From: Armatimonadota bacterium
GTDB lineage: Bacteria > Armatimonadota > Zipacnadia > Zipacnadales > JABUFB01
Assembly: GCA_013314775.1 (NCBI GenBank)
Contig: JABUFB010000002.1
Span: 1-64,000, forward strand
Length of the DNA stretch: 64,000 bases
Reading direction: 5' to 3'
How positions within the stretch are numbered: the stretch's first letter is position 1; every line of letters begins with the position of its first letter. The position numbers and the translations under genes were made by a program. A model generated the notes under the pieces. The model was given only the letters and a program-made list of their open reading frames with translations. It was not told where the DNA came from and made no database searches. Below are positions 1,227 through 46,575 of the stretch, one piece after another.

Positions 1227-4200
1227 GTGCGCACCTCCAAGTACCGAGTTCACCACGTGGCTCTTGCAGCAACACTCCCCTTGCTCGTCCTCGCGATGGG
1301 ATTGTTCCCAACGGGCACCGCGTCCGCAGCGAGCATCGACGGGGTGTGGGTCTGGCCCCAGACCGCGAGCACTAACTCCTGCCGCTGGATTCGCATCCAG
1401 ATCGGCGTGAGCACCTCGGAAGAGGTCTATTCCGTCTCATTGAGCGGCGTCAGCCCGGCCGACAGCTACGCCCCCAACTCGGGCATGCCCATCGGAACCG
1501 TGCTTCAGGGCGGTTTCAGCGGGCTTTCCGGGCGCACCAACACGGACACAACGGTCCTCTACGCGCCCAATCGAACTGTACGCTACTTCACCATAGGACC
1601 ATTCGTCGGCTCCCTGAACGCCTTCGGCCAGCGTCCTGCGGACTGGCCTTACGTGATAGGCTACCTCGCCAGTCCGGGCACCAACACCACTCAGCCGGTG
1701 AACGCGACCACCCACACGGTGGGCTTCACAGTCCTGACCTACAACACATCGGACAACAGTATCTCCACCACTGTCCTGAACACGACGACGGGCTATCGTA
1801 CTGTTCACGACAATGACGACTACCTGGACTGGAACCGCCCCGACGGTTCCGGCGGCAACATCGACCCCCTCCGCGTAGGTCCGGTCGAGGTGCTTTCCGA
1901 CAGCGGCAGTGGCAGTTCCGCTTTTACCTTCCGGGTGCGCTACACCTCCGGTCTTTACTCGGGCATAAACATGGAGCCCCTGTGGAGGACCGACGAGACC
2001 TTCCCCAACGATGGTAGTGCAGGCTTCTGGGATCGGTCCCGGGGCTTCCCGCAGCAGCGGAGCGGGCCTGACAGCGTCCGCCAGTTCAACTGGCTGTATG
2101 GTCGGACAACGGATCCGTGGCTAGATCAGGTGGGTTACGCCCGCGCGGAGTTCGATCAGCGTGGCGCCGTAGAACCCCGGATCATGCTGGTCATCGACGG
2201 CAAACACTGGGCACCACACTACATGATCCCAGAGGAGCCCAGTGACACGAACTACACGGATGGTGCGTTGTACACTTATACCATCCGCCCCACGGACTTC
2301 ATGAATTTCATCGACAACATCTTCCTGTTCCCCTTTGACCTTCCAGGCCAGGACTTGTGGGACAATTGGGCCGTGCGCATAGCCGGCACCCCTGCATCCA
2401 ATAACTATGTGTCGATGACCGCCGGTCCGCACACCTATGAGTTCTGGGCGACCGACGACTTCGCACCCGTGCGCAACAGGGCGTGGGTTCAGGTGGGCTG
2501 GCCAGGCAACGACGCGCATGTTGAGTACATGGAACGAGCCGCACCCGAGCCCAGGCGCGTGGACGGCCTGCGCTCAGCGCTGAAGCGCGGCCGCATCAGC
2601 GTCTACAACGAGCAGCAGGGTGGCGCAGCCTACACCTTCGACGAGCTGCGGCGGTTCAATGACGTGTCCGTAGACCAGCCGGACCCGTACGGCTACACGC
2701 TCAAGTCCCACAACGCCTCCACCAATGCTGACCTGCCCTCGGACCTGGAGGCCCTGGGCAGCGCCAACGTTGCGACCTCTCTGCGTAAGTTCCCGAACGT
2801 AAACCCGGTCCTGACCGCTCACCCGTTCTTCGGGATAACCCACCGCGAGGGCGGCATTACAACGCCTTTGCCGGCAGCCACCACTGCCTGGGGGACACCC
2901 GATTTCACTTCGGTGGGCGTGAACAACCCGTCAGTGTCCGGGGGCTATATCGACAATGCGATCCCGAATAATGCCTACATTCCGGGCGCAAACATCGGCG
3001 CATTGCCGAACCCCTTCGAGGCCGAGACTGGTGCCGGCCCGGAGCCACCGAACGGGCCGTGGAAATACACGAACGACGACACGATCCTCCCGAACTTCGC
3101 GAATATCTGGAACGAGCTTGCTTCGACGCCGTTCCGCGGAGGCAAGTGGACCCGGGGAACCAACTACACCTTGCGGGTGAATTACTGGCACTCCGAGAAC
3201 GTGGCGCCACGCTTCATGCGGGTGTATATCCGGCGCAATACCCCGGACCCCGCGAATCCCGGTGCGGCTCCGGGCCAGTGGTTCGCCTACACCATGGAGA
3301 ACGCGGACAACGACGCCCGGTATGACAACGGCGCCGTGTTCCAGTACCAGGCCACCCCTGACCAGCTTCCCACGAACAGCTCCCGCAGTGGCGGCGGCGT
3401 GGGCGAGTACAACTACTATTTCGAGGCCAATGACGGGACCCGGACGGCTATCTTCCCGAATCGCCCGGACGCGTACCAGGGCATCAACGATCCGGGCGAC
3501 ATCGGCGTGCCGTCCGGCCCCGAGGGCCAGGATTACTACTGGTTCCGTGTGAACCAGAGACCGATCCTCAGCGAGAACTCGGTGACCCCCACCGTAGGCA
3601 ACGCCGGAGACCCCTTCACATTCAGGGTCAAATACACCGACCCGGACGGCGAAGCGGGCAATCCTAACGCCAAAGGTGACCGGCCGTTCATTGCCCACCT
3701 GTACGTTGACCTGTACGGCGACCAGTACGGACAGCATTCTGTCACGGCGGCGCCGGCCAACGAGTTCACGCTGGAATACCAGAACGCAAAGGGGCACGTC
3801 TTCGCCACAAACGAACTGGCCGGCCTGTATGTGGTGTTCGAGGATGGCGCAGCTGTTCGCGAGATCTATCGGATCGCGGGGAACAACGGCAACACAATCA
3901 ACCTGGTCTCCAACGCCTCCGATCCCGACCATCCGGGTTCTGTTCAGACCGACGGTGTCCAGGACGGAGATTTGTTCTATATCGCGCAGCGGACCGCGAT
4001 GGACCGGGATACTTCGAGCGCCAATGCCGCCGACTATGATGGCGACTACACCAACGGCGAAGTATACGTGTTCAATACGGGCACGAACATGATCCTGGGG
4101 CCCGGGAACCACCGTTATTTCTTCCGCTTCGCCGACGACTGGGGCGAGTGGATCTACCCAGGCCAGACGGATGTGCATGTGGAGGGCGAATACGTGCGGT

Positions 4201-7200
4201 TCCCGAACGCTCGGGAGTTCTCGGGGCCGCAGGTCATTGAGAACCGGGCGCCGGAGCTGGTGGACTTCCGCTTCCTGCCCCAGGATGTGGGCGCGGCTCC
4301 GGACGGAAGCACTTCGACGCCGTTCATTTTCTACGTCACTTACGTCGATCGGGACAATGATCCGCCGGCGTTCATCCGGCTCGAGCTCGATGGCGGCACC
4401 ACGCTCAACATGTTCCCGGAGGACGCAAGCGACAAGGTCTACACCGACGGTGCGGTCTACCGCACGGCCGCGATTCAACTTACCGAGGGCCAGCACTTCA
4501 TGCGGGCGCAGGCATCGGATGCCGAACTGCGCTTCCCGCCGGCCACGGCCTACCCGCCCGGCGATCCGCTGCCCTTCATGGGCCCGGTTGCGACGGTCGC
4601 AGGCCCAGTCAGCTCCGCCACGGTCCTGCCCTATACGGTGGGTGGCAAGACCTTCCCAGACGGCCGATATGACAGTGGCGGGGTGACCATCCGCATGCTG
4701 TCCGGTGCCGCCGCAGGGAAGACCTATACCATCGCGTCCAATGCCGGGTCGAACCTGACCCTCACAGCCGGCGCAGACCTGATCGCGGACGCTGTTGCCG
4801 ACGGTGACCAGTTCATCTTCGACGCCGCACCCGGACCGAAGGTGGCTGCGAACACGCCACCGCAGCTCATTTTCCCGGCGGACGATGCCGACTACAACCC
4901 GGATCCCAACGCCCTGGAGCTGCCGGGCCTGGAGCCTGACTCTGGTGTGCCGGAAGACCTCGGCACCGTACCGCCGACGCAGGCAACCACCTTCACCTAT
5001 CGGGTCATCTATATCGACAACGACCAGTTCGCGGGCGTCCGCGGCAACCCGCCTGCCTACGTTCAAGTCTACATCGACAGCGTCGCGTATACCATGAGTC
5101 CGGTCGACCCAACCGATACCGACTACACCACGAACGGTCGCGGCGCTGAGTACATTCTTACGGTGCCGGACCGCGGTGCTTCGCCGCCCATCCCTCCGCT
5201 GATCGAGGGTACGCCACATACCTACTTCTTCGTGGCCTCGGACGGGCTGGACACGGCGCGGCTGCCCGCACTGGGAACGGTGACAGACGACCGGTATGAC
5301 GGGCCGATCGTTGACGGCAGGCCCGACCCGCCGCAGCAGCTGTTCGTCACGGACACGCCCAATGACAACGGCAACTCCATGCAGTGGCAGTTCAACGCCT
5401 CCCTCGACGATGGTGGCGGCGCTGACGACGTCGTGGAGTACCACCTGTACCGGAACACCACGGGTGTGCCCTTCGCCGACCCGCCGATCCTGGTCATTCC
5501 GGCCGACAACTCGCCGTCATACGCCGGACAAGACCCGCCATCGCCCGCGGTTGATACCGGTCTGCAAAAGGGCGTCGCTTACTTCTACACCGTCCGGGCC
5601 TACGATGGCCCGAGCATCGACCAGGACCGCGACGGACTGCCCGACCGGCTGCCCGACGATGGCTCCGGCGTGCCGCAGTACGTGCCGATTGATCCACTCG
5701 ACCAGTCCTTTGACTCCAATGTCGAGGGCCCGGTGACGCCGGAAGACAACATCCCGCCTGGCGCGCCGACCTTCTTGGCTGCAGTCAATCCAGGACTGGG
5801 CGGCACCATCGAGCTGAACTGGGGCGCCTCTCCTGACGACGGCACCGGCGGACAAGATGTGGTCGAGTACCGCATCTACCGCGCGACCGACCAGGCAGAC
5901 CTTCAGACCGGGCCTCCGCTGGTCGTTATTCCCGCGGGGGAGACCGAGTACGTTGATCTGACCGCGGTTGATGGAACTGACTACTGGTACGGCATCACCG
6001 CGTGGGACGGAGCCAATGAGTCCGTACTCGTTCCGGCTGATCCGAGCCCGATCGCTTCCTCCGACGCCGCGCCGCCGGAAATCATCAACCTGGTTCCGGC
6101 CAACGGAGACATTGACGTGCCGACGGATACAAACATCCAGTTCGACCTGCGTGACACCGGCGCGGGTATCGACATCAGAAGCCTGAAGATGACCGTCACC
6201 GTGGGCGGAGTCGACACTGACCTGACCGCGAATGACCTGACGATCACCAACCTCAACGGCATCACGCGGGTGGTGTACGACCCACCGGTGGACTTCTCCT
6301 ATCTGGTCTCCGTCGGGGTGCATATCGAGGTGAGCGACCAGGCCGGGGATCCCACCGCGAACCCCGTGGAGCCGCCCAACAGTGCTACGCTCGACTACCG
6401 GTTCACCATCATCGGTCCTCCGGTGTACGCCATCGAGGGCACAATCATCGACCCGGACGACCTGGGGAGCACGATCCCCGACGTCCTGAAGGACATCACG
6501 GTCCGGGCATATCCCGTTGGTGGCGGCATGTTCCTGCAGACGAAGACGGATGAGAACGGGAACTACCGGATCGACGGGCTCGCCGCGGGCGAGTACTACG
6601 TGAAGCCCTTCAAGCGCGGACTGGCCTTCACCCCGGACCAGAGCGTTCCGCTCACCGTTCCGCCTTCTCCGCAGCGGGCCGACTTCACTGCGCGCCGCGG
6701 TTACGACATCGGCGGGACGATTACCGATAAGGACGGCAATCCTCTGGCGGATGTCCGGGTATCCAACGGCGTGACCGAAGTCAGCACCAACGCTGACGGC
6801 GAGTGGGTCATACAGGACGCCGGCGCCGACACCTACACTGTCATCCCGCTGAAGGACGGCTACAACTTCACACCGGTGAGTCGCGACGTCACCGTTCCGT
6901 CGGCCGACATGGACCAGATCGATTTCGTCGGTGACGTGGAGCGGTATTTCGTGAGCGGCAATATCAAGTCGTCGGCCGGCGCGCGCCTGGGTGGCATACT
7001 GGTCGAGGTGTACGATGACAACGGCCAGAAAGTCATCTTCCGGGACGCCAACAACAACATCATCGAGCACCGCACCTCCGCAAGCGGCGACTACTTCATC
7101 GACGGCCTCGCCGCGGGCTTCTATTCGATCCGTCCCACAGACCCTGACTGGGTATTCGATCCGGTTAGCCGCGACATCAATGTGGCCTCCGACCGCAACG

Positions 7201-8516
7201 ACGTGGGCTTCATCGGCCTGCCGCTGTACCGCTTCACTCTTGCGCCGGGCCTGGACATGGTCGCGCTGCCCATTACGCCGCGGGACCTCAACCCGGCCAA
7301 TAACGTTCCGGCAGGCGTTGATATCGCCCGCTGGGATCCGACCATGCCAGACACGGTGGTCGACAAGTATCTCAAGGGCGACCAGGGCGCGCCCGTTCCG
7401 GCTCAGTACCAGATGTTGCCCGGGCGGTCCTTCTGGATGCGCAACAACAACGCTGCACCTGTCGTGCTGGCGATCCCTGATGAGCCGGTGGACACGACCA
7501 TCGACTTCAGCCTCGGCCTGGAGCGCGGCTGGAACATGGCCGGTAACATGTACGACGCCGATCTGCCCTGGAGCAAGCTGAGCATCACGCCCGGAGAGCC
7601 CGTGCGCGACTACGGCTTCCTGTACAACAAGGCCACCAACAACTATGACTTGATCACCGACATTCCGGGTCTTGGCACGCAGACAGTGATCCCCAGGAAC
7701 GCCGGCTTCTGGATCAAGTCCGACCAGAAGCGGACCGTCACAGTGAAAGCTGTGGCCACGAGCGACGCCACAAGCGCCCAGCCCGCCGCGCTGGAACTGG
7801 GCGAGAACGACTTCCTGGTGCCTATCGTCGCCCGGGCAGATCGCTGCGCGGACACAATGAGTGTCGCCGGGGTCCTGACGTCATCCTCGGACGACATCCG
7901 GATCGAGAACCCGCCGGCAGTATCGCCCTACGTGGACGTGTACTTCGTGAAACCGAGCGGGGAACGCCTGGCGTGTGAGGTCCGCTCGGCTGCTGCTGAA
8001 ACCCAGAGTTGGGACTTCGTCGTGGCGACGGACCTGCCCGGCGCCAAAGTGGAGCTGACCCTGCCTGATCTGTCAAGCGTCCCGGCGGACAAGACCGTCT
8101 GGCTGGTGGATCAGGCATCAGGCAAGCGCCTCTACGCGCGGACGCTGTCGGCGTACGGCTACACCGCGGATGGCAAAGGGCTGCGCAGGTTTACCCTCGA
8201 GGTCGCGCCGAAGAGCGCCGCCGGCCTTGTCATCAGCGCCGGAACCGCCAGCCAGTCCGGTGAGCGGGCATCGGTCAGCTACACCCTGAGCGCGCCCGCA
8301 ACTACCACGGTGAGCATTCTGAATATCGCCGGGCGCGCGGTCCGCGTGCTGCAGACGGGCGCGGTTGCGTCGGCGGGCGTGAACACGGTCGCCTGGGACC
8401 TGCGAAGCGACAGCGGCACCCGGGTCCCTGCCGGCCGGTACCTGGTCCGCATAGAGGCGCTCGCCGACAACGGTCAGGCCGCCTCGACGGTGGTAACGAT
8501 GCAAGTCAACCGCTGA
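1227..8516 (+). CDS. Giant exported modular protein with FlgD-like C-terminal domain
   Basis: 2429 aa, probably surface-exposed or secreted; no enzymatic domain recognised. From GTG 1227 the N-terminus is a clear signal peptide: basic start, hydrophobic VALAATLPLLVLAMGLF, then ASAA near residue 34. The first 1350 residues are Asp/Pro/Tyr-rich beta-type repeats, several containing 'PF-F-V-Y-D-D' segments and a 'YTDGAVY' element. Two fibronectin-III-like domains follow (about 1366 and 1508), a Big_5-like Ig domain (about 1613) and three carboxypeptidase-regulatory-like domains (about 1733, 1826, 1906) each with a 'G-x-Y-x-I-x-x-L-x-x-G-x-Y' core. A shared module (about 2001-2340) and a FlgD-like Ig domain (about 2340-2429) close the protein, both paralogous to the next gene. 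Calcium-binding Asp loops are frequent. Role inferred: adhesion or extracellular matrix. Confidence 0.88.
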   Translation: MRTSKYRVHHVALAATLPLLVLAMGLFPTGTASAASIDGVWVWPQTASTNSCRWIRIQIGVSTSEEVYSVSLSGVSPADSYAPNSGMPIGTVLQGGFSGLSGRTNTDTTVLYAPNRTVRYFTIGPFVGSLNAFGQRPADWPYVIGYLASPGTNTTQPVNATTHTVGFTVLTYNTSDNSISTTVLNTTTGYRTVHDNDDYLDWNRPDGSGGNIDPLRVGPVEVLSDSGSGSSAFTFRVRYTSGLYSGINMEPLWRTDETFPNDGSAGFWDRSRGFPQQRSGPDSVRQFNWLYGRTTDPWLDQVGYARAEFDQRGAVEPRIMLVIDGKHWAPHYMIPEEPSDTNYTDGALYTYTIRPTDFMNFIDNIFLFPFDLPGQDLWDNWAVRIAGTPASNNYVSMTAGPHTYEFWATDDFAPVRNRAWVQVGWPGNDAHVEYMERAAPEPRRVDGLRSALKRGRISVYNEQQGGAAYTFDELRRFNDVSVDQPDPYGYTLKSHNASTNADLPSDLEALGSANVATSLRKFPNVNPVLTAHPFFGITHREGGITTPLPAATTAWGTPDFTSVGVNNPSVSGGYIDNAIPNNAYIPGANIGALPNPFEAETGAGPEPPNGPWKYTNDDTILPNFANIWNELASTPFRGGKWTRGTNYTLRVNYWHSENVAPRFMRVYIRRNTPDPANPGAAPGQWFAYTMENADNDARYDNGAVFQYQATPDQLPTNSSRSGGGVGEYNYYFEANDGTRTAIFPNRPDAYQGINDPGDIGVPSGPEGQDYYWFRVNQRPILSENSVTPTVGNAGDPFTFRVKYTDPDGEAGNPNAKGDRPFIAHLYVDLYGDQYGQHSVTAAPANEFTLEYQNAKGHVFATNELAGLYVVFEDGAAVREIYRIAGNNGNTINLVSNASDPDHPGSVQTDGVQDGDLFYIAQRTAMDRDTSSANAADYDGDYTNGEVYVFNTGTNMILGPGNHRYFFRFADDWGEWIYPGQTDVHVEGEYVRFPNAREFSGPQVIENRAPELVDFRFLPQDVGAAPDGSTSTPFIFYVTYVDRDNDPPAFIRLELDGGTTLNMFPEDASDKVYTDGAVYRTAAIQLTEGQHFMRAQASDAELRFPPATAYPPGDPLPFMGPVATVAGPVSSATVLPYTVGGKTFPDGRYDSGGVTIRMLSGAAAGKTYTIASNAGSNLTLTAGADLIADAVADGDQFIFDAAPGPKVAANTPPQLIFPADDADYNPDPNALELPGLEPDSGVPEDLGTVPPTQATTFTYRVIYIDNDQFAGVRGNPPAYVQVYIDSVAYTMSPVDPTDTDYTTNGRGAEYILTVPDRGASPPIPPLIEGTPHTYFFVASDGLDTARLPALGTVTDDRYDGPIVDGRPDPPQQLFVTDTPNDNGNSMQWQFNASLDDGGGADDVVEYHLYRNTTGVPFADPPILVIPADNSPSYAGQDPPSPAVDTGLQKGVAYFYTVRAYDGPSIDQDRDGLPDRLPDDGSGVPQYVPIDPLDQSFDSNVEGPVTPEDNIPPGAPTFLAAVNPGLGGTIELNWGASPDDGTGGQDVVEYRIYRATDQADLQTGPPLVVIPAGETEYVDLTAVDGTDYWYGITAWDGANESVLVPADPSPIASSDAAPPEIINLVPANGDIDVPTDTNIQFDLRDTGAGIDIRSLKMTVTVGGVDTDLTANDLTITNLNGITRVVYDPPVDFSYLVSVGVHIEVSDQAGDPTANPVEPPNSATLDYRFTIIGPPVYAIEGTIIDPDDLGSTIPDVLKDITVRAYPVGGGMFLQTKTDENGNYRIDGLAAGEYYVKPFKRGLAFTPDQSVPLTVPPSPQRADFTARRGYDIGGTITDKDGNPLADVRVSNGVTEVSTNADGEWVIQDAGADTYTVIPLKDGYNFTPVSRDVTVPSADMDQIDFVGDVERYFVSGNIKSSAGARLGGILVEVYDDNGQKVIFRDANNNIIEHRTSASGDYFIDGLAAGFYSIRPTDPDWVFDPVSRDINVASDRNDVGFIGLPLYRFTLAPGLDMVALPITPRDLNPANNVPAGVDIARWDPTMPDTVVDKYLKGDQGAPVPAQYQMLPGRSFWMRNNNAAPVVLAIPDEPVDTTIDFSLGLERGWNMAGNMYDADLPWSKLSITPGEPVRDYGFLYNKATNNYDLITDIPGLGTQTVIPRNAGFWIKSDQKRTVTVKAVATSDATSAQPAALELGENDFLVPIVARADRCADTMSVAGVLTSSSDDIRIENPPAVSPYVDVYFVKPSGERLACEVRSAAAETQSWDFVVATDLPGAKVELTLPDLSSVPADKTVWLVDQASGKRLYARTLSAYGYTADGKGLRRFTLEVAPKSAAGLVISAGTASQSGERASVSYTLSAPATTTVSILNIAGRAVRVLQTGAVASAGVNTVAWDLRSDSGTRVPAGRYLVRIEALADNGQAASTVVTMQVNR

Positions 8517-8564
8517 TTTTCCGGCGGTCCGCACCTAAATGCGAAGACATTACGCGCAAGAACG

Positions 8565-8601
8565 GGCCTGGATGCCTCTGCGGCAAGGGAGCATCCAGGC
8601 C
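8565..8601 (+). repeat. 11-bp perfect inverted repeat between the two giant genes
   Basis: GGCCTGGATGC (8565-8575) and GCATCCAGGCC (8591-8601) flank a 15-base loop, 49 bases after the stop of the first giant gene. No T-tract follows, so it could be a transcript-stabilising or attenuating hairpin rather than a simple terminator. The remaining spacer to the next gene is about 130 bases and contains no gene I can support. Confidence 0.6.
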
Positions 8602-8734
8602 ATAGGCACATGACGCAAAACCGCCCGGGCAACGCCTCGAGTGGCGGCGGCTGGATGCGGCGGCGAGACGCGGGCAGGCTGTACAACGGCTGGGGACTTG
8701 CACGCAGTCGTCGGATAGTCAAGGAGGAACACAG

Positions 8735-11700
8735 ATGGCCGCCTCGACATACAGGTCGCGTCAGTCTCGGGTCCCGATGGGCCTGCTCGTCGCCGTGCTC
8801 ATGCTCCTTCCGAGCGTGGGCGCGCTGGCGCGAACAGTGCGCATCCACCTCGGCGAGCAACGCAAGAGCGGCATCGAGTTCCTCATGAAGCAGAGGGGGA
8901 TCTCCCGCGATGCCGCTGACCGCCTTGTGCGCCAGTATGAGCTGAAAAACGGGAATCGCATCCTTGACTACGTCGACGTTCCGGAAGGCGCCCAGTTGGA
9001 CTTCTGGAAGGTCCGCAATCATCCGGATCCCGCCAAGCGCGTGGAGTTCGGCGGGCGCGGGACCATCGTGGATGCGACCTCGTACCTGGGGCGCAACTAC
9101 AAGGAACTCCTGTTTGGACTGCTCAACACGAGCCAGCGACAGGAGGCCCTGGCCCTGCTCAAACAGGCCCGCGACACCGGGTTCATGATCATCCCGACGG
9201 CTCTGCAGGCCGGGCCGGGGACAGTGAAGACCGCCGCTGCGCAGACCTTTACCATCGGTGTCATTGTTCCAGAATTCCCCCACTGGATCGACATGCGCCC
9301 GCAAGGTAGCGGCCAGGCCGGCGTGCGCTCCGGTACCTTTTACCAGTCCAACGTAACGACCCCGCCTGGGGTCAAGGTCTTTCCCGTGAGGCCGGGTGGC
9401 GGCGGCGACGGTGGCCCCCTGGGAGGCTGGAATCCGTCGGACACTTCCATCCACAACTACAACTGGGAGGAGTGGCCCGGCGAGTATTACGCAGACTCAC
9501 CGGGCGGTCCAATCAACACCAGCGGCATGCCGCTGGGTCTTGCCAACAACACCTCCGCCTGGTCCGGCTCGAGCGTCACTGCGACAACCAATACCGACGG
9601 ACACCCCCACTACGGCGGTGACGTGCGCCCGGGCAGCGTGTACGCCGAATCCCCGCTGCAACTCCGCCAGCGCCTCTACGACCTGTTCTTCAACAAGGCC
9701 CTGACGAGTTCGCTTTACACCTGGTTCTATAACAATACCCACGCTCACATCAGCGTTGAGGGTTCTCCTTCCAGCATCATCGGCTGGATCGACGACCACC
9801 ACGTGCTGGACCGACTCCCGCGCGGTTCCTCAAACTACTATGCCGTCCAGCCAGGCACCCCGTTCTACCGGCCGCAGGACCCGAACGGGCCCGGAATCGT
9901 CCGGGCGAGCCTTTGGCAGAACGGCAGCACCAACGGCCTCACGCTATTCTTCCGTAAGGACGTTGACAACCTGAGCCTGAGCCAAATCCAGCTTACCGCA
10001 TTCCAGACCCAGGACGTGGACAGCGCGACCAGCGGCACCCAGACGGGCAACATGGTGATCGATATCAGCAGCTCGGGCCGATCCACGATCTACGCCGATC
10101 CGTGGGACCACCGGCGGTGGACGATCACGGATTCGGACTGGGAGTTCGTGGACCAGGGCGACGCTACCAAGCGCATTGATTTCGTGCTTGCGCGTGGCTA
10201 TGGATGGTCCTGCCAGGTTAGCGGTCACGCGGCCGAACTGGGCTCAAGCCCCGTCACCTGGAACAACGCCAGCACCGGTTATCGCAACCAGGGCCAAGGC
10301 TGCGGTGACTTCCCGGCCTACCAGCCACTGCCCGGCGTCAACGTCCCGCGGACCCTCGCCTACACGGGTGACACCGTCTCGCCGAGAACGGCCACAGGCG
10401 TGGTCAACTCCGACGGCACTGTGGGCTCCCAGATGGGCAACCGTCTGATGAGCTTCTGCTACTATGCTCACAACGGATCGTATGGCGACCCGCTGTTCTC
10501 CACCTTTAGCTCCAGCGGCAGCGCCTATCAGCTTCAGACCCTGCGCAACAGCAGCGGGGAGACCGACCCCATCGCCGGCTACGTGGACGACTCCCGGGAC
10601 CGCGCCCCGCGCTTCTATCCCTTCGACCACGACATGCGGGACCACAACTTCCCGAACATGGGCGGGTACTTCGGCACATCCTCTTCCTATCACACGGATT
10701 CGCAATGCTGGGCAGACGTGACCCAGGTCATGAAAGACCAGGGCATCACCTACACAAACTATGACCAGCTCATCCTGATGTACCCCGGCGCCAACGACAA
10801 TGCCAGCGGAGGCGAGTCCCTGAATGCGGGCGGCTTCATCGCTCACTCCGGGAACCCGATACCGGTGTCGACCGGAGCGGGTGTTCTGCTGCTCGCCCAT
10901 GAGATCTGCCACAACTTCGGCGCCGGCGACCTGTACGACCTGGACTTCTATACGAACAACGGGACTCCGCCGCCGTCGCCGCGGCTCGTGGAGACCTGGA
11001 TGATGGCGCCGTACACCGTCATGAGTTTCGGCGGCTTCCGCCTTGACGCCTGGCACAAGCTCAATATGGGCTACGCGACCGCGACCAACGTCCTGCGCGA
11101 CCTCGGCTTCACGCGGATTGACCAGGTCGAGCAGACCACAGCGGACCCGGTCATCCTGAAGCTCCCTGCGAACCCGCTCTCGGTGTACGCAAGCAAGAAT
11201 CCGATCAAGCCGGCCGGTTTCTCGGGCACCCAGGGCGACTGGGACAAGCTTGCAGATCCCGACCAATGGCAGGAATACTTCCTGATCGAGAACCGCAATG
11301 TGATGTCCGGTGCCTACGCGGGGGACCGCTCGCCGCGCGGCCTGTACATCTACCATATCGATCACCGCGCCGGCCAAAGCCGCGAGGACTGGCACGCGGT
11401 GAAACTCGTGCAGGCCGATGGTCGCGAAGACCTGGAGACGGTGCAGACCAGCCAGGCTTTGACCACGGACATGCTCAATGGAGACCCGTTCCCCGGTTCC
11501 ACCGCGAACCGGTTCCTGACTGAGCGCAGCCAGCGGCTGATCAATGGCCGCAACTCGCCCACGAGCTGGAGCAATGGCGTTCCGGATTCGGGTGGCGCAA
11601 CCATCATGGCCAACACGCCCACGGACTCCTTCGTGCGCGTGACGAACATCAGCGGCCCCGAAACCGGCCCCGGCGGAACGCCCAACGCAGCCGGCGACCC

Positions 11701-14700
11701 GATGACCGCTTTCATCTACGTGGAGCCGGCCGAAGTGGTTGTTACCGGTCAGACGCTCATTCCGGCGCCGCCGCCCGGGCAGACCTTCTTCGAGGTCCAG
11801 CAGGGCACCGAAGACTTCCCGGTCCTGTTGCTCAATCTGAACAACAGCGGCGTCTACCCGAACCTGTCCACCAACCCGGTGACGATCAACACCCTCCGGG
11901 TCTACGAAGTGGGCACCAGCCTGCAGGACGGCAACATTGCCGTCGCCAAGCTTTATGAGGACAGCAACAAGAGCGGTGCGCTGGAACTGGGGGTCGACAC
12001 GCTCCTCAAGGCCGCGACGGTGACCAACGACTACATCGATTTCACCAATCTCGGCTACACCATCCAGCTCAACGAGGACCGTAACCTCATAGTCGCATAC
12101 GACATCGCCGAAAATGCGCAGACCACACCGACAGTGACCGTCGGCGCGGAACTGACGACGCACGAGTTTGTGGTGCCGAACCACCCCGGTGCAGTACAGC
12201 AGCGCGTCCGACTAACCAGCGCGGGCCCCGGCATCCAGGTGAACGGCGGGGACGGTTACACCTTCGGCGACTACCGCTTCCCGATTCCGGGCGCGAGCAA
12301 TCGGACCGCCCGGATCGTTGAGTCGCCGGACACCTTGACGGTGGATACATTCAACCTCGCTCCGGCCACTGCGGTGCAGGGCTCCTTCGATGTTCCCATC
12401 ATGCGGCTGCAACTGTCGGTGAACCACGATGCCGTGACACTGAGCGGCATCCAGGTGACGCAGACGGGAACCGCGATCGGCGGCACCGACGTCTCCATCG
12501 TCCGGGCCTATCACGACAAAGCGGGCAACGGCGTCATTGACGCGGGGGATACTCTGCTGGGTGAAGCGGCCGTCATCGGGCCCACACAGGCCGGCGTTGC
12601 CAACATCGGTGGCCTGAGCTTCGACGTCACGGATCTGGCGCAACAGCACATCATCCTCGCGGTGAACATTACACCGGATGCCACCGCGGCGGCGACAGTG
12701 CAGTTGCAGCTGCAAGCGGCGTGCATGACTCTGCAGCAGAATCCCACCGACCTTTTCCCGGATCAGGTTGACTACAGCAACTTCCCGCACACCCATGCGG
12801 ATGCGCCGAACCCCGTGACGCAGATTATCCCCGGCAACCGGCCACCGTATGCGCCGCCGCCGCCGAACCATGCCGTCTACGGCAGCGATTGGTCTCCGCG
12901 CGGTGGGGTGAGTGTGGAAGATCAGCAGCCCGTCTGCACCTTCCCGCGTGCTCGCGGCATCAGTGCCGCGCCGCCCAATGACGACCCGGACCCGGATACG
13001 ACCTACGACACTGCCGACCTGATGAGCTATCAGGTGCAGTTCAGCACCGACCCGACCTTCGCGTCCATTGTGCGGACTGAAACGATCAGCCCGCCTCACG
13101 CCAACGCCGACGTACTGACCTTCCAAGTGGGCGCGGCTCTGGCCCCCGCCCAGTACTACTGGCGTGTGAGGACCATCGACACCCAGGGCGCGCAGTCGCC
13201 GTGGTCCGCGCCGGCCGCGGTCTTCGTGGTTGCGAACCGGCCCACGCCCCCCACCGGTCCGTTCTCACCGGTGAGTGTACCCCCGGGGAGCGGGAACACG
13301 GTTGTGAGCGTCGCGCAGCCGACGTACTCGTGGACCCTGGGCACTGACGTGGAAACGCCCCCAAGCCAGATGCGCACCATCGTACAGGTTGACGACAATG
13401 CTGACTTCAGCAGCCCGTTGTTCGAGGCGTGGTCCCAGCCGGGTGCGACTACCAGCGCAGGCTGGGTAGTGCAGGCTGGCGTCGGCTCCGGGAGCGACGT
13501 CCTGACGAGGGGCGTGCATTACTACTGGCGCGCGCAAAGCCTGGATGGCGCGAACACCGTTTCGGGATGGACGACTGCGACCCTCGACTTCAGGGTCGGG
13601 GAAAACCTCCAGCCGACCGCGCCGCAGCCGCCATTCTCGCCCGCGGACGATCAAGTCGTCACGTCCGCCAACCCGACCTTGACCTGGGGCGCCTCCAGCG
13701 ACCCGGACCCGGAAGACAGTCCGTCGAACTTCACGTACTACGTGCAGCTCGATGACGACAGTGACTGGACCGACCCCAACCTGTTTGAGGGTCAAGTAGA
13801 CCCACCCATTGCGGGAAGCCCCATCAGCCTGTCTCTGACGCCGGCGATCATGCCCGTGCCGCTGGCTGACAATGGGCATTACTTCTGGCGCGTCCGAACC
13901 CGCGACCGTGCGGGTGTGGACGGAACGATCTCGGACTGGACCGCGACGCTGAGTTTCTATGTGAATACCCAGAACGACCCACCCAAGGCGCCCACAACTG
14001 GCTTCAGCCCGGTAAACGCCACCCGCATCAGCGATACCACACCGGACCTGAGCTGCGACCCGACGGTGGATCCGGATCCGCCCAACAATCCCGATCCGGC
14101 GGGGCAGGTCGCCGGGTACCAGTTCCGGCTGAAGTACGAGCCGGCTGACCCGGGCACCTGGAATCCGGATGCCGACTTCGACTACCAGTACACATCCGGC
14201 ACAAACCAGGCCGCGGTGACCACCCCGCTGACGGACCCGCTACCCAACGGTCGTTGGTACTGGGCAGTGCGCGCGCGCGACGACTACGGCGCATGGTCGC
14301 CCTGGAGCGTGCCTCTCTACTTCCGGCTGAATCGGCCGCCCACGCCGCCTCCGACCCCCGGACCGACCCCGGACACCGATTGGGTTCCGGCCGACGGCGC
14401 GGCGGTCATACCCACACCGACCTGCCAGTTCCCGCCCGGCGACGACCCGGACGAGACTGACGATCCATCGAACCTGACCTACCGCGTTGAGTTCTCACAG
14501 GACGCGGCCTTCGACACCGTTTTCGCAGCCAACATCTACACGGTGTTGCCCAATCCCAATGACCTGTCTGTCGTCAGCTTCCAGGTGACGAATGCTCTGG
14601 CGACCGGCACCTGGTACTGGCGCGTGCAGGCCTTTGATCAAGCAGGGGCCACCTCTGCATACTCGCAGGTCCATAGCTTCCTGGTGGATAACCCGCCCAG

Positions 14701-17700
14701 TCCGCCACAGGCGCCCTTCGCGCCCAGCGGGAACTCGGACGCGGGCCGCTTCCCGGTCTACGAGTGGGTCATCGGGGCCGATCCAGACCCGGCGGACCTT
14801 CCGGCGACCCTGATTACTGTTATCGAAGTCGACGACAATATCGATTTCACCAGCCCAGAGTACGGCGGCGAAGTGGACAGCGCCCCCGGAGCGGACAGTC
14901 TGGACTCCTTCGCAGCCGGGCTGACCGAACTGCGCCCCGGTGTCACCTACTACTGGCGCGCCAAGACCCGTGATCAGGCCGGGCTGGAGTCCGGCTGGTC
15001 GCCGGTCCAGAGCTTCGTGGTGATCGACAATACCGCCCCGGATCCGCCGCGCAACATGTGGCCCAATAGCGGTCAGGAGACGGACCAGCTGAAGCCCATC
15101 ATCTACTGGGACGCCGCGACGGACCCGGACGATGCGCCCGACGTCCTGCGTTACGAGATCCAGCTCGACGACAATGGTGACTGGAGCGACGCCAACGTCT
15201 GGGAAGGCACCGCCCTGGGCACGGACATTCGCGCGCTGGATGGCAGGGTCTTCGTCGAGGTCGACTCCACGACGCAGCCGGCCAATGAGCCTCTCAAGGA
15301 CAACACCCTGTACTACTATCGCATCCGGACTATTGACCCGGCCAACCAGACCTCGGACTGGAGTACCGTCCAGAACTTCTGGGTCAACAGCGAGAACAAC
15401 CCACCGGAAGCTCCGGCAACCGGCTTCAGTCCCAGCAACGGTGAGGTGGTCTTCAACCTTCCCGCTGTCCTGCGCTGCAACCATGCATTCGACCCCGATC
15501 CGTATGATCCGACCTGGCCCGGCGGACCGTATCTGACCTATATCTACCAGCTGCGGCGCGACAGCGCGCCCACGGACGCCAGCTTCACCTACCAGTACAC
15601 GGTAGTGGCCAGCACGCCGCCCAATGTGCAGGCTCAGGTCCAGGCCATCGTGACCGGCGACCTCGGCGATGACGATCCCAACCACGAGCACCCGTGGTAC
15701 TGGCGCGTTCGCGCAGTGGATGACCAGGGCGCTCAGTCGCCGTGGAGCAGCGTCCAGTACTTCTATCTGGACACCGGAAATCAGCCGCCGACGCTTAGCC
15801 CGTCGGGCAGCTACACTCAGGCCCTGACGCCAAAGTATGGGAACATAGCCCCGCCGACGCACTTCAGCTTCGAAGTCGTCTATGCTGACGCTGAAAATGA
15901 CGCCCCTATCGATATCGATTGGGGTGGCCAGACCGGCGCGGTGTGGCTCGAGCTGGATGGCGATCCAACCAAGCGCATTGCGATGCGCAAGCTGGACGAT
16001 ACCGACAACAACTACGTCGACGGCGTGACGTACATCGCCGGTCTGAACGCAGACGACCCGCTGCTGGGGATCGGCACCCACAGATTCACATTCTATACCG
16101 CGGGATGGATGGTCCAGTGGCCGCCGCTGCCTCCCGTCACCCCGCCCCCGAACTTCAACCTGTGGGGCCAGGGACCGATCATCGGCACCGCCAGCGGAGT
16201 CGCCTTCACGGACGGGGCGTGGGATGCAGCGGCGATCCCAGACCCCGGGACCCCGCCTGACGTAGTGGTGGACGCCGGCTACGAAGAGGGCCTCGATGTT
16301 ATCCGGGTGCAGCTGACCGATACGGACAAGGCTGGTCGCGGCCAGATCCAGGTGACGCTGTATACCGACCCGGGTAAGTCGCCCATGGACGTCGAGACCC
16401 TGACTCTGACTGAAGACCTCGGCCAGCCCGCCGGTACCTTCCGCGGTCAGATGGCTGTCCTCGGGCGCGCGGAACAGCCGGGCGATCCGGAGCTATCCCT
16501 CCCGGACGGAGACCCGGGACGGGTCCTGAATGTAATCGCCGGAGCGAGTGGCAACCTGGTCACCGTCCAGTACCAGGATCCCGACGAAGGCGCGGACTTC
16601 CCGGCCTCCATGCAGCGGGACATCTCTACGGACACGGCCTTGGTCGTGGACACCACCGCACCACCGGCTGTCCCTGACGCCACGCTGCAGCTGGCGACGG
16701 GCGCCAATGCATACGGTAACTCTGACGGTCAGAGCATCGACGTCAGCTGGGCAGGCTATCTGCAGGCCGGCCCACCATATGAGCAGGTCGATATAGTCGG
16801 TTATGAACTGTATCTGAGCGACACCGGCCCGTTCGACGTGGATGTCAACGGCGGAGTGGTGTTCAATCCGGCGAACGCCGCCGTCCTTGTCGCGACCCTG
16901 AGCCCCAACCAGACGTCCTACACCGTCACTGGTTCGGAGCCCAGTCTGGTCGGCGCCGGGATTGCGATCGACCCCAACCAGACCTATCACGTCGCCGTGG
17001 TGCCGGTTGACGAAGTGCCCAACCGCGATGTGCCGGTGAGCAGCAAGGCGGTCACCACCGCCGACACCCAGCACCCGGTGCTCTTCGACGAATCTCCCAC
17101 GGACGGGTCAGTGGAAGTGCCGCTGGCTACACCGATCAGCTTCCGCCTCGAAGACCCTGGAACGGGCATTGACGAGAGCACGTTGCAGGTGCTCGTGCGA
17201 CGGGCGCCCACCGGTTCGCCCGCCGGTACTGGCACCTGGTACGACATCAACGCGGATCCCTTCGGTCTCGGCTGGCAGCGCACCGTCAGCGGGACCCTCG
17301 CGGACCGGACCTACACCTTCAACTATGCTCCGGGCGATCCGAACGCCGATAGCTTCTTCGCGCTCAACCAGCGCGTCGAAGTCCAGGTGATCTGCGACGA
17401 CCTGGAGGGTAACACGCTGGACACGTGGGCGCCGGTACCGCCGTTCACTCGGTTGTGGACCTATAACACCAAGTCCGACCTCAACCCGCCGCAGGTAACG
17501 AACCTGAGCCCGGCGGACGGCGCGACTAACGTCCTGCCCACCACGCCGATCACCTTCCACGTGACCGACGATATCGCGGGTGTTGATACATCCACGATTA
17601 TGCTCCAGGTCAATGGTCAGCCTATCGGCGCGGCGCAAGGCCTTGTGATTGATGACACCGATCCGCTCAACGTCGCGGTAAGCTACCCTGCACCGACGGC

Positions 17701-20284
17701 CAACGTTATTCCCTGGGGCTCCACGGTCACGGTTCGTGTCTGGGCGAGCGATCTTGCGGGCAACGAGATCCCGCAGGCGACACCAGTGGAGTGGAGTTAT
17801 GAGACCCAGGCCGATACCAGTGGCCCGGCCATGGACATCGCGGCGCTGGTGCCGGCTGCCGGCGCTACCAACGTGCCGATCGACACCAACATCTCCTTCC
17901 GGCTGACCGACGACCTTTCCGGCGTTGCGAAGCTGCCGAATGGCGACTGGGATGTCACGGTCTATATCAAGGTGGGCGCCGGTGGCGAGACGCAGGTCCC
18001 GTACGCCGACCTGCAGTTCACTGGTACCGCACGCGCACTGCGCGTCACCTACAACCCGCCGGCCGACTTCAGCTATGAAGACGTGGTTGCGGTGCGTGTG
18101 GTCGCGAAGGATGCGGCCGGCAATGCGCTTGGCGACGAGAGTCCGGTGATGGGCCTCAATAACGGGTTCGAATGGTCATTCACCTGTGTCTCTCCGCCGC
18201 GCTACCGCATCGCGGGGACCATCGTTGACCAGGACGGCAAGCCGCTGCCCGGCGTGGTCGTCACATCGTGGGAGGATGGACAGCAGCCCGAGGACGGTCA
18301 GCAGGTCACCACCGACGGTAATGGCACGTACATCGTGCAGATCCAGATCGGAGGCACGTTCAACCTGCGTCCGGAACTGCCCGAGTACACCTTCGAGCCC
18401 GCCGAGCGTCAGGTCGTGGTTGCCGGTAGCGACGTGGTCGATCAGGACTTCGTGGGAACCCTCCAGACGTACAGCATCAAGGGCAACATCGTCCTGGACG
18501 GCGCAGGCCTTGAGGGCGTAACCGTCTCCACGACCATCGGCGGCGCAACAGTGAGTGTGCTCACCGATGCCAATGGGGACTACGAGATACCGAACGTCCC
18601 CAGCGGACGGTACACGATAACGCCCGCGAAGGTCGGCTACACCTTCCGGCCGGGGGGACGAACGCGGGACCTCACGGGAGCAGACCTCGAGGGCATTGAC
18701 TTCGAGGCGGTCGCTAACACCTACAGCATTTCGGGGACCGTCCGCAACTGGGACGGCGAACGGATGGCGGGGGTGCGCATCTCCGACGGCACCCGCAGCA
18801 CCGTGACGAACGATAGCGGTGAATTCACTCTGGCCGACGTACCGTCGGGGACGGTGGAACTGACCGCCAGCAAGACTGGCTACAAGCTGCTTCCGGAGAG
18901 CCAGCAGGTGACGGTCCCGCCCGACGCGACCGCCGTTGACTTCACCGCATACGTCTCCTTCGCCAATAGCTTCCCGGCGGCGGATGACATCGTGAACATG
19001 ATCGGCGTGCCCTGCCACCCGGCGGACACCGACCCCGATGCGGTATTCGGGGAGCGCTCCGACGTGGTCCGGTGGAATCCGCTGGGCAGCCCGCCCGCCT
19101 ATGTGTTCGCCGGAGTGGGTACCCTGAACCAGGATGTTGTCAACGTTCAGCCTGGTCGCGGCTTCTTCGTGAGGCTGCGCAAGGCGGACCCGAACGATAA
19201 TACGAAGACGATCCCGAACCCCGATCTCGAGGTGGCAGGTCGCCCGGTCACGACCGCACGGCCGTTCACCTTGAGCCTGGGCCCGATCTGGAACATGGCA
19301 GCGAACCCGTACACCACCGCGCTGCCCTATGCGAACATCGTCCCTGCTACGCCGGATTCGGTCCGCAACTACGGTTACGTGTACGATGCGACGCTGCGCA
19401 ACTACCTGCTGGTCTCGTCACTGCCCGGCATCAACGTCGCGCGGACCCATATCCTGCCCTGGGAAGGTATCTGGCTGCGGACGAACGGCGGGGCGGCAAC
19501 CGTCAACATACAGGCTCCGGTCGGGACCAGCGATGCCCCGGCCAGCCCGCAGGCACTTGATCTCGGCAGGGACGGTTGGGCACTGCCCATCGTCGCCAGA
19601 GCGGGTGGCAGCATCGATACGACCACCGCTGTGGGCGTTGGTCCCGCGCTGTCTGGCGCCTTCCAGATCTACAACCCGCCCATGGCGCCTGGATCGGTGG
19701 ACGTGTTCATTCGCTCCGACGACGGAACCGCACTGGCGCAGGATGTGAAGCCGGACGTCACCGCCAACCCGGTCTGGACTCTGACTGTGGCTACGGATAT
19801 CCCGGGCGCCCAGGTTGAACTGAGCATGCCTGATCTGAGCCGCGTGCCCAACGACATGGGCGTTTACCTTACCGATCTGGAAACCGGCAAGCGCATGTAC
19901 GCGCGCACCATGACCAGCTACCGCTTCGAAGTGGGCGCCGCCGGCGGCAGCCGGGACTTCAAACTGGAGGTCGCGCCCAAGTCCGGTGCGGGCCTGGTCA
20001 TCACAGCAGCGGTGGCGACCGCCGGTGTTCAGGGAACAGTGGTCACGTACAACGTGTCCAAGGAGTGCCAGGTGACAGCGGACGTCCTGAACGTTGCGGG
20101 ACGGGTGGTTCGCACCCTTTGCTCCGCGAAGGATGCGGCCCCGGGTGTGAATACTCTGAGCTGGGACCTTACCAGCAGCCAGGGCACGCGCGTACCGTCC
20201 GGGCGTTACATGATCCGTATCAGCGCCGCGAGTGAAGATGGACAGCAGGTGACGGCCGTCACATCCGCAAACGTGAGCCGCTAG
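8735..20284 (+). CDS. Giant exported M6-type metalloprotease with FN3 and Ig repeats
   Basis: 3849 aa. ATG 8735 follows AAGGAGG (8721-8727) and opens a signal peptide (hydrophobic MGLLVAVLMLLPSVGALA, residues about 15-32). Residues 722-732 read HEICHNFGAGD, matching the HExxHxxGxxD zinc site of M6 (immune inhibitor A-like) peptidases, followed about 25 residues later by an APYTVMSFGG segment like the family's Met region. After an Ig-like stretch come eight fibronectin-like repeats (about 1370-2340), each ending in a 'YYWRVRTxDxxGxxSxWS' core (around residues 1475, 1595, 1715, 1842, 1961, 2072, 2193, 2323). Three Big_5-like Ig domains (about 2781, 2918, 3035), three carboxypeptidase-regulatory-like domains (about 3154, 3246, 3330) and the C-terminal module plus FlgD-like domain shared with the preceding gene follow. 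Probably cell-associated or secreted; the substrate is unknown. Confidence 0.88.
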   Translation: MAASTYRSRQSRVPMGLLVAVLMLLPSVGALARTVRIHLGEQRKSGIEFLMKQRGISRDAADRLVRQYELKNGNRILDYVDVPEGAQLDFWKVRNHPDPAKRVEFGGRGTIVDATSYLGRNYKELLFGLLNTSQRQEALALLKQARDTGFMIIPTALQAGPGTVKTAAAQTFTIGVIVPEFPHWIDMRPQGSGQAGVRSGTFYQSNVTTPPGVKVFPVRPGGGGDGGPLGGWNPSDTSIHNYNWEEWPGEYYADSPGGPINTSGMPLGLANNTSAWSGSSVTATTNTDGHPHYGGDVRPGSVYAESPLQLRQRLYDLFFNKALTSSLYTWFYNNTHAHISVEGSPSSIIGWIDDHHVLDRLPRGSSNYYAVQPGTPFYRPQDPNGPGIVRASLWQNGSTNGLTLFFRKDVDNLSLSQIQLTAFQTQDVDSATSGTQTGNMVIDISSSGRSTIYADPWDHRRWTITDSDWEFVDQGDATKRIDFVLARGYGWSCQVSGHAAELGSSPVTWNNASTGYRNQGQGCGDFPAYQPLPGVNVPRTLAYTGDTVSPRTATGVVNSDGTVGSQMGNRLMSFCYYAHNGSYGDPLFSTFSSSGSAYQLQTLRNSSGETDPIAGYVDDSRDRAPRFYPFDHDMRDHNFPNMGGYFGTSSSYHTDSQCWADVTQVMKDQGITYTNYDQLILMYPGANDNASGGESLNAGGFIAHSGNPIPVSTGAGVLLLAHEICHNFGAGDLYDLDFYTNNGTPPPSPRLVETWMMAPYTVMSFGGFRLDAWHKLNMGYATATNVLRDLGFTRIDQVEQTTADPVILKLPANPLSVYASKNPIKPAGFSGTQGDWDKLADPDQWQEYFLIENRNVMSGAYAGDRSPRGLYIYHIDHRAGQSREDWHAVKLVQADGREDLETVQTSQALTTDMLNGDPFPGSTANRFLTERSQRLINGRNSPTSWSNGVPDSGGATIMANTPTDSFVRVTNISGPETGPGGTPNAAGDPMTAFIYVEPAEVVVTGQTLIPAPPPGQTFFEVQQGTEDFPVLLLNLNNSGVYPNLSTNPVTINTLRVYEVGTSLQDGNIAVAKLYEDSNKSGALELGVDTLLKAATVTNDYIDFTNLGYTIQLNEDRNLIVAYDIAENAQTTPTVTVGAELTTHEFVVPNHPGAVQQRVRLTSAGPGIQVNGGDGYTFGDYRFPIPGASNRTARIVESPDTLTVDTFNLAPATAVQGSFDVPIMRLQLSVNHDAVTLSGIQVTQTGTAIGGTDVSIVRAYHDKAGNGVIDAGDTLLGEAAVIGPTQAGVANIGGLSFDVTDLAQQHIILAVNITPDATAAATVQLQLQAACMTLQQNPTDLFPDQVDYSNFPHTHADAPNPVTQIIPGNRPPYAPPPPNHAVYGSDWSPRGGVSVEDQQPVCTFPRARGISAAPPNDDPDPDTTYDTADLMSYQVQFSTDPTFASIVRTETISPPHANADVLTFQVGAALAPAQYYWRVRTIDTQGAQSPWSAPAAVFVVANRPTPPTGPFSPVSVPPGSGNTVVSVAQPTYSWTLGTDVETPPSQMRTIVQVDDNADFSSPLFEAWSQPGATTSAGWVVQAGVGSGSDVLTRGVHYYWRAQSLDGANTVSGWTTATLDFRVGENLQPTAPQPPFSPADDQVVTSANPTLTWGASSDPDPEDSPSNFTYYVQLDDDSDWTDPNLFEGQVDPPIAGSPISLSLTPAIMPVPLADNGHYFWRVRTRDRAGVDGTISDWTATLSFYVNTQNDPPKAPTTGFSPVNATRISDTTPDLSCDPTVDPDPPNNPDPAGQVAGYQFRLKYEPADPGTWNPDADFDYQYTSGTNQAAVTTPLTDPLPNGRWYWAVRARDDYGAWSPWSVPLYFRLNRPPTPPPTPGPTPDTDWVPADGAAVIPTPTCQFPPGDDPDETDDPSNLTYRVEFSQDAAFDTVFAANIYTVLPNPNDLSVVSFQVTNALATGTWYWRVQAFDQAGATSAYSQVHSFLVDNPPSPPQAPFAPSGNSDAGRFPVYEWVIGADPDPADLPATLITVIEVDDNIDFTSPEYGGEVDSAPGADSLDSFAAGLTELRPGVTYYWRAKTRDQAGLESGWSPVQSFVVIDNTAPDPPRNMWPNSGQETDQLKPIIYWDAATDPDDAPDVLRYEIQLDDNGDWSDANVWEGTALGTDIRALDGRVFVEVDSTTQPANEPLKDNTLYYYRIRTIDPANQTSDWSTVQNFWVNSENNPPEAPATGFSPSNGEVVFNLPAVLRCNHAFDPDPYDPTWPGGPYLTYIYQLRRDSAPTDASFTYQYTVVASTPPNVQAQVQAIVTGDLGDDDPNHEHPWYWRVRAVDDQGAQSPWSSVQYFYLDTGNQPPTLSPSGSYTQALTPKYGNIAPPTHFSFEVVYADAENDAPIDIDWGGQTGAVWLELDGDPTKRIAMRKLDDTDNNYVDGVTYIAGLNADDPLLGIGTHRFTFYTAGWMVQWPPLPPVTPPPNFNLWGQGPIIGTASGVAFTDGAWDAAAIPDPGTPPDVVVDAGYEEGLDVIRVQLTDTDKAGRGQIQVTLYTDPGKSPMDVETLTLTEDLGQPAGTFRGQMAVLGRAEQPGDPELSLPDGDPGRVLNVIAGASGNLVTVQYQDPDEGADFPASMQRDISTDTALVVDTTAPPAVPDATLQLATGANAYGNSDGQSIDVSWAGYLQAGPPYEQVDIVGYELYLSDTGPFDVDVNGGVVFNPANAAVLVATLSPNQTSYTVTGSEPSLVGAGIAIDPNQTYHVAVVPVDEVPNRDVPVSSKAVTTADTQHPVLFDESPTDGSVEVPLATPISFRLEDPGTGIDESTLQVLVRRAPTGSPAGTGTWYDINADPFGLGWQRTVSGTLADRTYTFNYAPGDPNADSFFALNQRVEVQVICDDLEGNTLDTWAPVPPFTRLWTYNTKSDLNPPQVTNLSPADGATNVLPTTPITFHVTDDIAGVDTSTIMLQVNGQPIGAAQGLVIDDTDPLNVAVSYPAPTANVIPWGSTVTVRVWASDLAGNEIPQATPVEWSYETQADTSGPAMDIAALVPAAGATNVPIDTNISFRLTDDLSGVAKLPNGDWDVTVYIKVGAGGETQVPYADLQFTGTARALRVTYNPPADFSYEDVVAVRVVAKDAAGNALGDESPVMGLNNGFEWSFTCVSPPRYRIAGTIVDQDGKPLPGVVVTSWEDGQQPEDGQQVTTDGNGTYIVQIQIGGTFNLRPELPEYTFEPAERQVVVAGSDVVDQDFVGTLQTYSIKGNIVLDGAGLEGVTVSTTIGGATVSVLTDANGDYEIPNVPSGRYTITPAKVGYTFRPGGRTRDLTGADLEGIDFEAVANTYSISGTVRNWDGERMAGVRISDGTRSTVTNDSGEFTLADVPSGTVELTASKTGYKLLPESQQVTVPPDATAVDFTAYVSFANSFPAADDIVNMIGVPCHPADTDPDAVFGERSDVVRWNPLGSPPAYVFAGVGTLNQDVVNVQPGRGFFVRLRKADPNDNTKTIPNPDLEVAGRPVTTARPFTLSLGPIWNMAANPYTTALPYANIVPATPDSVRNYGYVYDATLRNYLLVSSLPGINVARTHILPWEGIWLRTNGGAATVNIQAPVGTSDAPASPQALDLGRDGWALPIVARAGGSIDTTTAVGVGPALSGAFQIYNPPMAPGSVDVFIRSDDGTALAQDVKPDVTANPVWTLTVATDIPGAQVELSMPDLSRVPNDMGVYLTDLETGKRMYARTMTSYRFEVGAAGGSRDFKLEVAPKSGAGLVITAAVATAGVQGTVVTYNVSKECQVTADVLNVAGRVVRTLCSAKDAAPGVNTLSWDLTSSQGTRVPSGRYMIRISAASEDGQQVTAVTSANVSR

Positions 20285-20367: not shown

Positions 20368-20814
20368 ATGCACAGCACCCGCCTGATGAAACTGTTCGCA
20401 GCAGCATGCCTCGTAGCCCTGGCTGTTCCTCTGGCGCTCAGCGGATGTGGGGGAGACGACGCCGCCCCGAACGCGAACGAAGACACGGGCATTGTGCGCG
20501 GGCGCACGATTGATGCGCGCACCGCGCTGGGCCTTGGGAATGTCCAGGTCGCAATAGGCAATAGGATCGTCTCCGGCGGCCAGACCCAGTTCGTGCAGGC
20601 GGGAGCCGCCTTCTCCACGACCCCCAATGGCGACTATGAGATCACGGGAATCCCGCCCGGCACCTACAACACTTTGCGCGTTACTCCGTCCCAGCAGCTC
20701 TACGGTCCACAGCCGGACCAGACGGTGAACATCACCATCGCGGCCGGCCAAATCGTCGTGTTGGCGCCCGTGCTTATTGTCGATGGCCAGCCGCCGCAAC
20801 CGGCCCAAAACTAA
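20368..20814 (+). CDS. Small lipoprotein with carboxypeptidase-regulatory-like fold
   Basis: 148 aa. A basic, hydrophobic leader ends in a lipobox (L-S-G-C, Cys at residue 28), so it should be lipid-anchored. The mature part has the 'G-x-V-x-G-R-T-I-D-A' start and 'P-N-G-D-Y-E-I-T-G-I-P-P-G-T-Y' core of carboxypeptidase-regulatory/Cna-B-like domains, the same fold that is repeated three times in each preceding giant protein. ATG 20368 follows GAGGAGA at 20352-20358. It lies 83 bases after the M6 giant and before two hairpins, so it may be the last gene of that unit. Function unknown. Confidence 0.8.
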   Translation: MHSTRLMKLFAAACLVALAVPLALSGCGGDDAAPNANEDTGIVRGRTIDARTALGLGNVQVAIGNRIVSGGQTQFVQAGAAFSTTPNGDYEITGIPPGTYNTLRVTPSQQLYGPQPDQTVNITIAAGQIVVLAPVLIVDGQPPQPAQN

Positions 20815-46533: not shown

Positions 46534-46575
46534 CGCTTTCCAGGGGCTCTGAACGGCCACTTCGCTCCCGTGAGG

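Follow-up and report, generated by a model that had tools for sequence, protein, structure and literature searches.

To our knowledge, it has not been established how large proteins reach the outer surface of Armatimonadota and other diderm Terrabacteria. In the type IX secretion system (T9SS), proteins carry C-terminal domains (CTDs) with a basic terminal residue. The system has been described for the Fibrobacteres-Bacteroidetes-Chlorobi (FCB) superphylum (PMC11205867). Here we examine two giant proteins encoded in a 64,000-nucleotide stretch of an Armatimonadota (Candidatus Zipacnadia) genome (the window; contig JABUFB010000002.1, positions 1 to 64,000). Both end in a module of ~430 residues, of which we found no description in the literature on the T9SS or on FlgD_ig in Armatimonadota. 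On balance, we favor the view that this shared unit is an Armatimonadota-wide C-terminal surface-sorting or anchoring module that may be read by an outer-membrane partner.

Giant proteins A and B (2429 and 3849 aa) lie where the first-pass annotation of the window had placed them (Table 1), and GTG 1227 is the best start of A because a GAGGAGG Shine-Dalgarno (SD) sequence precedes it at about 1211-1217. That annotation also claimed a common ~430-residue C-terminal module with a FlgD-like immunoglobulin (Ig) end. BLASTP aligns A with B at 33% identity over 843 residues (E = 9e-108; residues 1630-2441 and 3034-3849), all the quoted motifs are present, and the Pfam FlgD_ig model scores 50 bits on A and 36 bits on B at a cut-off of 27. 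The module and its end domain are thereby confirmed; the homology is nevertheless not limited to ~430 residues, since A and B also share a Big_5-like domain and the CarboxypepD_reg repeats that precede the module. Protein B retains the zinc motif HExxHxxGxxD of M6 peptidases, and its match to the M6 model lies under the cut-off (Table 1). The motif is also intact in the giants of relatives' loci L202 and L203 and was not found in those of loci L198-L201, L205, and L206; these sequences suggest that M6 peptidase activity may have been lost in some relatives.

Within the window, the gene order is Ogt-like gene, giant A, giant B, small CarboxypepD-like lipoprotein, and PQQ propeller. The three-gene block with a lipoprotein, proposed from the window as a putative dedicated surface assembly, is conserved, and its small lipoprotein gene is real down to the start codon and lipobox (Table 1); its single CarboxypepD_reg domain is sub-threshold in Pfam (20.5 bits against 32.3). 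The order of module-bearing giant, CarboxypepD-type lipoprotein, and PQQ propeller is kept in seven loci of relatives, some of which also have MnmE and Ogt-like neighbors beside the block. Elsewhere in the window, a 607-codon minus-strand open reading frame (ORF) at 44782-46605 has no Pfam match and may not be a gene.

Table 1. Features of the giant-protein block, its C-terminal modules, and the candidate partner barrel. Positions are those of the window unless a locus is given.
Feature	Position	Strand	Evidence
Giant exported protein A, 2429 aa: signal peptide, Ig/cadherin-like arrays, CarboxypepD_reg repeats, C-terminal module	1227..8516	+	ORF, Pfam, SD
C-terminal module of A, 425 aa, four domains	7239..8513	+	Profile; AlphaFold2 (AF2) pLDDT 94.7, pTM 0.85
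D1+D2 of A: two tandem 'WN...GYW' domains, mutually homologous	7239..7754	+	hhalign probability 96.6%
D3 of A: beta-rich domain (VELTLPDLS...LVDQASGKRLYART)	7800..8222	+	Conservation, AF2 secondary structure
D4 of A: FlgD/PorU-CTD-like Ig domain ending ...VNR-stop	8223..8513	+	PF13860 50 bits; profile vs solved structures
Giant exported protein B, 3849 aa: signal peptide, M6-like metallopeptidase region, Ig arrays, CarboxypepD_reg repeats, C-terminal module	8735..20284	+	ORF, Pfam, NCBIfam
M6-like peptidase region of B, intact HExxHxxGxxD (HEICHNFGAGD)	10835..11230	+	TIGR03296 22.3 bits, cut-off 110.8; motif
C-terminal module of B	18992..20281	+	40% identity to module of A; FlgD_ig 36 bits
Small lipoprotein with CarboxypepD_reg-like domain, conserved 3' of the giant pair	20368..20814	+	ATG 20368, SD GAGGAGA, lipobox LSGC
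PQQ/BamB-like beta-propeller with signal peptide, next gene of the conserved block	20954..22108	+	Pfam, synteny
Outer-membrane barrel-like protein, SprA-like ~90-residue repeat, no Pfam family	L015:690-4430 (G000 C3:40689-44429)		Profile, AlphaFold

The module consists of two tandem WN domains (D1 and D2), a beta-rich D3, and an FlgD/type IX-like Ig domain (D4), an architecture that AlphaFold2 predicts with high confidence from 86 sequences (Table 1). Neither the WN domains nor D3 have a match in Pfam or NCBIfam, and D4 is the best conserved part (2.15 bits per column vs 1.74-1.88). Against PDB sequences, the module profile finds the FlgD Ig domain (3e-12), PorU (3.5e-4), and PorZ (0.1). Of the 86 members, 83 match FlgD among the NCBIfam models, 55 match PorU, and 19 match the T9SS sorting domain (TIGR04183, E <= 0.01). 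D4 is kin to the Ig domain of FlgD, with a weaker relationship to the C-terminal domains that the T9SS proteins PorU and PorZ retain. Foldseek of the whole module returned generic multi-Ig matches only, at low TM.

Profile searches covered genomes within the phylum Armatimonadota and matched the module in every one of 61 genomes of a first sample (1 to 28 matches each) and its D3-D4 half in 177 of 201 genomes of a second (E <= 0.001); the module recurs throughout the phylum on other exported proteins. This genome encodes 11 copies, all at the end of an ORF. Four of the passengers are S8 subtilases, one of which has a dockerin, and two are PD40 propeller proteins; the M6-like protein B and Ig arrays also occur, and the rest have no family match. 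In the subtilase at G000 C8:1074568-1078452 (L017:5569-9453), a type I dockerin immediately precedes the module. Full modules are practically confined to the C-terminus: of 112 distinct ones, 111 end within 20 residues of the stop codon, including 70 that stop exactly where the profile does, and the sole exception is a lone FlgD_ig domain match. Such lone domains also occur outside the module, away from the C-terminus. The final strand reads phi-x-phi-x-R, with Arg as the terminal residue in 93 of 108 modules (overall Arg content of the modules 6.9%; binomial probability ~1e-91, relatedness of the sequences ignored) and in six of 81 neighboring coding genes. As scored by a hydropathy heuristic rather than by SignalP, 63 of 75 complete carriers have a signal peptide over threshold, most others visibly have one, and no strong hydrophobic segment follows it. 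By this measure the carriers do not show the C-terminal transmembrane helix of exosortase or sortase signals, and they end in the strand described above.

The sorting reading survives the refuting conditions set in the first-pass annotation: the module is C-terminal, sits on carriers with signal peptides, and recurs on exported proteins of the phylum. We propose that the N-terminal signal peptide would direct Sec export of the carrier, after which the module would fold into a four-domain beta-rich unit whose last D4 strand ends in the near-invariant terminal Arg. An outer-membrane partner would then recognize this C-terminal unit and either move the passenger to the cell surface or hold it there. 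Our best reading is a lineage-specific C-terminal signal that would work like a T9SS CTD. We infer that a partner recognizes the module, that this serves to translocate or anchor the carrier, and which protein the partner is; the best candidate would be the barrel protein at G000 C3:40689-44429.

This 1246-residue barrel-like protein is encoded directly before a module protein, which is followed by a lipoprotein. In named genomes, a scan for its family found Armatimonadota, mostly Candidatus Zipacnadia (formerly WS1), the closest at 93% identity; members of the Fimbriimonadales also have the barrel family. It is the sole match to the SprA profile in this genome; weak SprA matches occur in 28 of 61 genomes, nearly all on the barrel family and none over the cut-off. 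The stretch common to the barrel and SprA spans ~90 residues. Phage tail-tube/distal-tail domains resemble it too, so this repeat is no proof that the barrels themselves are kin. AlphaFold predicts a large beta-barrel with modest confidence (pLDDT 62), and Foldseek of this low-confidence model found generic barrels, with MtrB, SlpA, and LptD ranked above SprA at similarly low TM. The barrel has weak EpsL/PEP-CTERM outer-membrane matches, and most members outside the window's order end in the Phe that is classic for outer-membrane proteins.

With strong-match thresholds placed at the E-value gap after inspection (barrel <= 1e-50, D3-D4 <= 1e-45), 147 of 148 genomes with the barrel also have the D3-D4 half, vs four of 53 without (Fisher 7e-41, uncorrected for phylogeny). 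Counted by family, 32 have both, none the barrel only, one the module only, and 11 neither (1.6e-9). The co-occurrence clusters by phylogeny and in part mirrors operon linkage, as one module protein is usually encoded next to the barrel. At 38 of the 49 barrel loci with enough contig, a module or WN protein lies within 3.5 kb on the same strand. Some of these syntenic neighbors stop after the WN domains, so D3-D4 is dispensable for some members. Four genomes (G124, G144, G145, and G177) have the D3-D4 half without a strong barrel match. In one otherwise positive family, two 1.5 Mb genomes have neither barrel nor D3-D4, and three genomes of a single genus have lost the barrel and kept weaker modules. 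G050 and G051, neither with a strong barrel match, have essentially only the WN half left; G050 (family f15, 24 matches) encodes many such proteins. We regard the co-occurring barrel as the most plausible partner of the module, while treating it as a tentative candidate.

Module genes also cluster elsewhere. In a second arrangement, three module proteins surround a ~640-residue protein, often with an outer-membrane-like protein of ~660 residues, and the 640-residue family and cluster core occur in every one of the 13 loci compared, which represent several families and at least two classes. At G000 C1:335584-353770 (L014:1585-19771), the module proteins are a PD40 protein, an S8 protein, and one without another family match, accompanied by a ~640-730 aa protein, a C11-like peptidase, a 359-aa protein, and an Invasin_D3-containing protein of ~660 aa. 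The neighboring C11 clostripain was tried as a PorU-like sortase and rejected, being present in only four of 13 homologous clusters and scoring 23.1 bits against a Pfam cut-off of 25.8.

A possible though less favored account is that the module is an ordinary extracellular accessory region of binding or spacer beta-domains, the inherited C-terminal end of a paralogous family, with no part in sorting and with carriers that leave the cell by, for example, type II secretion. The generic beta-sandwich folds, with structural matches at low TM only, and the existence of D1-D2 without D3-D4 would fit such a region, and a type II secretion system has been reported for some Armatimonadota MAGs (PMC10290634). 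Accessory domains are, however, common at either end of proteins or internally, whereas the module keeps a strict C-terminal end with a terminal Arg on unrelated passengers; its terminal domain is also the best conserved, and the presence or absence of D3-D4 tracks the barrel.

The barrel could belong to an outer-membrane export system of the Armatimonadota's own, in which a barrel with a SprA-like plug/repeat region would recognize the module and export the giants without a GldLM motor or PorV. Such a system would be either sister to type IX secretion or convergent with it, and would lie outside the FCB superphylum. We consider this specific form of the sorting proposal unlikely.

We also think it rather improbable that the module tethers the giants to a pyruvylated polysaccharide at an S-layer-like surface, with the barrel acting as a glycan or envelope protein and not as a translocon. 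Several relatives outside the window's order have the gene order M48, DUF5693, CsaB, barrel, PEGA/CarboxypepD lipoprotein, module protein, and lipoprotein, and the run from DUF5693 through CsaB and barrel to lipoprotein and module protein is an apparent envelope operon of Armatimonadota. The presence of the CsaB pyruvyl transferase and DUF5693 in this operon speaks for such a tether, as do the weak EpsL/PEP-CTERM matches of the barrel. Against it, Pfam detects no SLH domain in the module proteins or in 18 barrels, and in the family to which the window belongs, the barrel has no CsaB or DUF5693 genes next to it. Runs of DUF5693, CsaB pyruvyl transferase, and barrel genes were seen at L082, L083, L084, and L094, with M48 peptidases upstream in some.

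Canonical type IX secretion, in which the end domain would be a type A CTD that leaves through SprA together with PorV and GldKLMN, is very improbable: the Ig-like CTD is related, A comes near the TIGR04183 cut-off, the module profile matches PorU and PorZ, and C25 peptidases occur in 18 of 61 genomes including this one, yet SprA/Sov (TIGR04189) exceeds its cut-off in none of the 61 genomes, GldM/PorM has no match in them and PorV none in this genome (both models without a positive-control genome), FlgD models fit the module better than TIGR04183, and the C25 peptidases are patchy and not module-bearing in this genome. The three window scores for TIGR04183 are 22.1 (A), 17.9, and 17.5 bits, under the cut-off of 23. 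The two C25 peptidases of this genome lie in open frames of 591 and 463 aa and are not among the module proteins; C25 peptidases were considered as a sortase for the module and set aside for their patchy distribution. We identified no motor, shuttle, or sortase partner for the module in these searches. The earlier suggestion of a secretion or anchoring signal equivalent to the T9SS tag is partly supported, by the C-terminal position, signal peptides, and exported passengers; on the features tested, the module is not a member of the T9SS.

A phylum-wide module with a conserved terminal Arg provides a sequence handle on the Armatimonadota surface proteome, which in this genome covers eleven proteins, proteases among them, and the co-occurring barrel gives the C-terminal sorting or anchoring proposal a testable partner. 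If module and barrel do act together, C-terminal sorting of a type IX-like kind would either have arisen twice or be of greater age or wider spread than the FCB range described for it.

The D4 of the module resembles the FlgD Ig-like domain (PF13860) in exceeding the Pfam cut-off and in its W-D-G and VPxGxY signature. Unlike flagellar hook-capping FlgD, the carriers have signal peptides and unrelated passengers and lack the FlgD N-terminal region, and the full-length FlgD model reaches 38 bits against a cut-off of 230, over the Ig domain only. Judged from sequence, FlgD_ig membership would apply to the last domain alone, and on the features tested the module would not be a T9SS component. The candidate barrel recalls the OmpM outer-membrane tether of diderm Terrabacteria in lying genetically near CsaB in some relatives, and differs from it in having no SLH domain. 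With the T9SS translocon SprA/Sov, the barrel family shares the ~90-residue repeat (profile 587-691) and a predicted large barrel, although its members measure 871-1262 aa vs ~2300, score 38-75 bits against a cut-off of 200, and have an unspecific fold match. The T9SS type A CTD (TIGR04183/Por_Secre_tail) differs from the module, which comprises 430 residues in four domains, is closer to FlgD_ig, and comes from a phylum in which searches did not recover the T9SS core; the two are alike in their strictly C-terminal Ig-like domain with a basic terminal residue, the signal peptides of their carriers, their unrelated passengers, and their many copies per genome.
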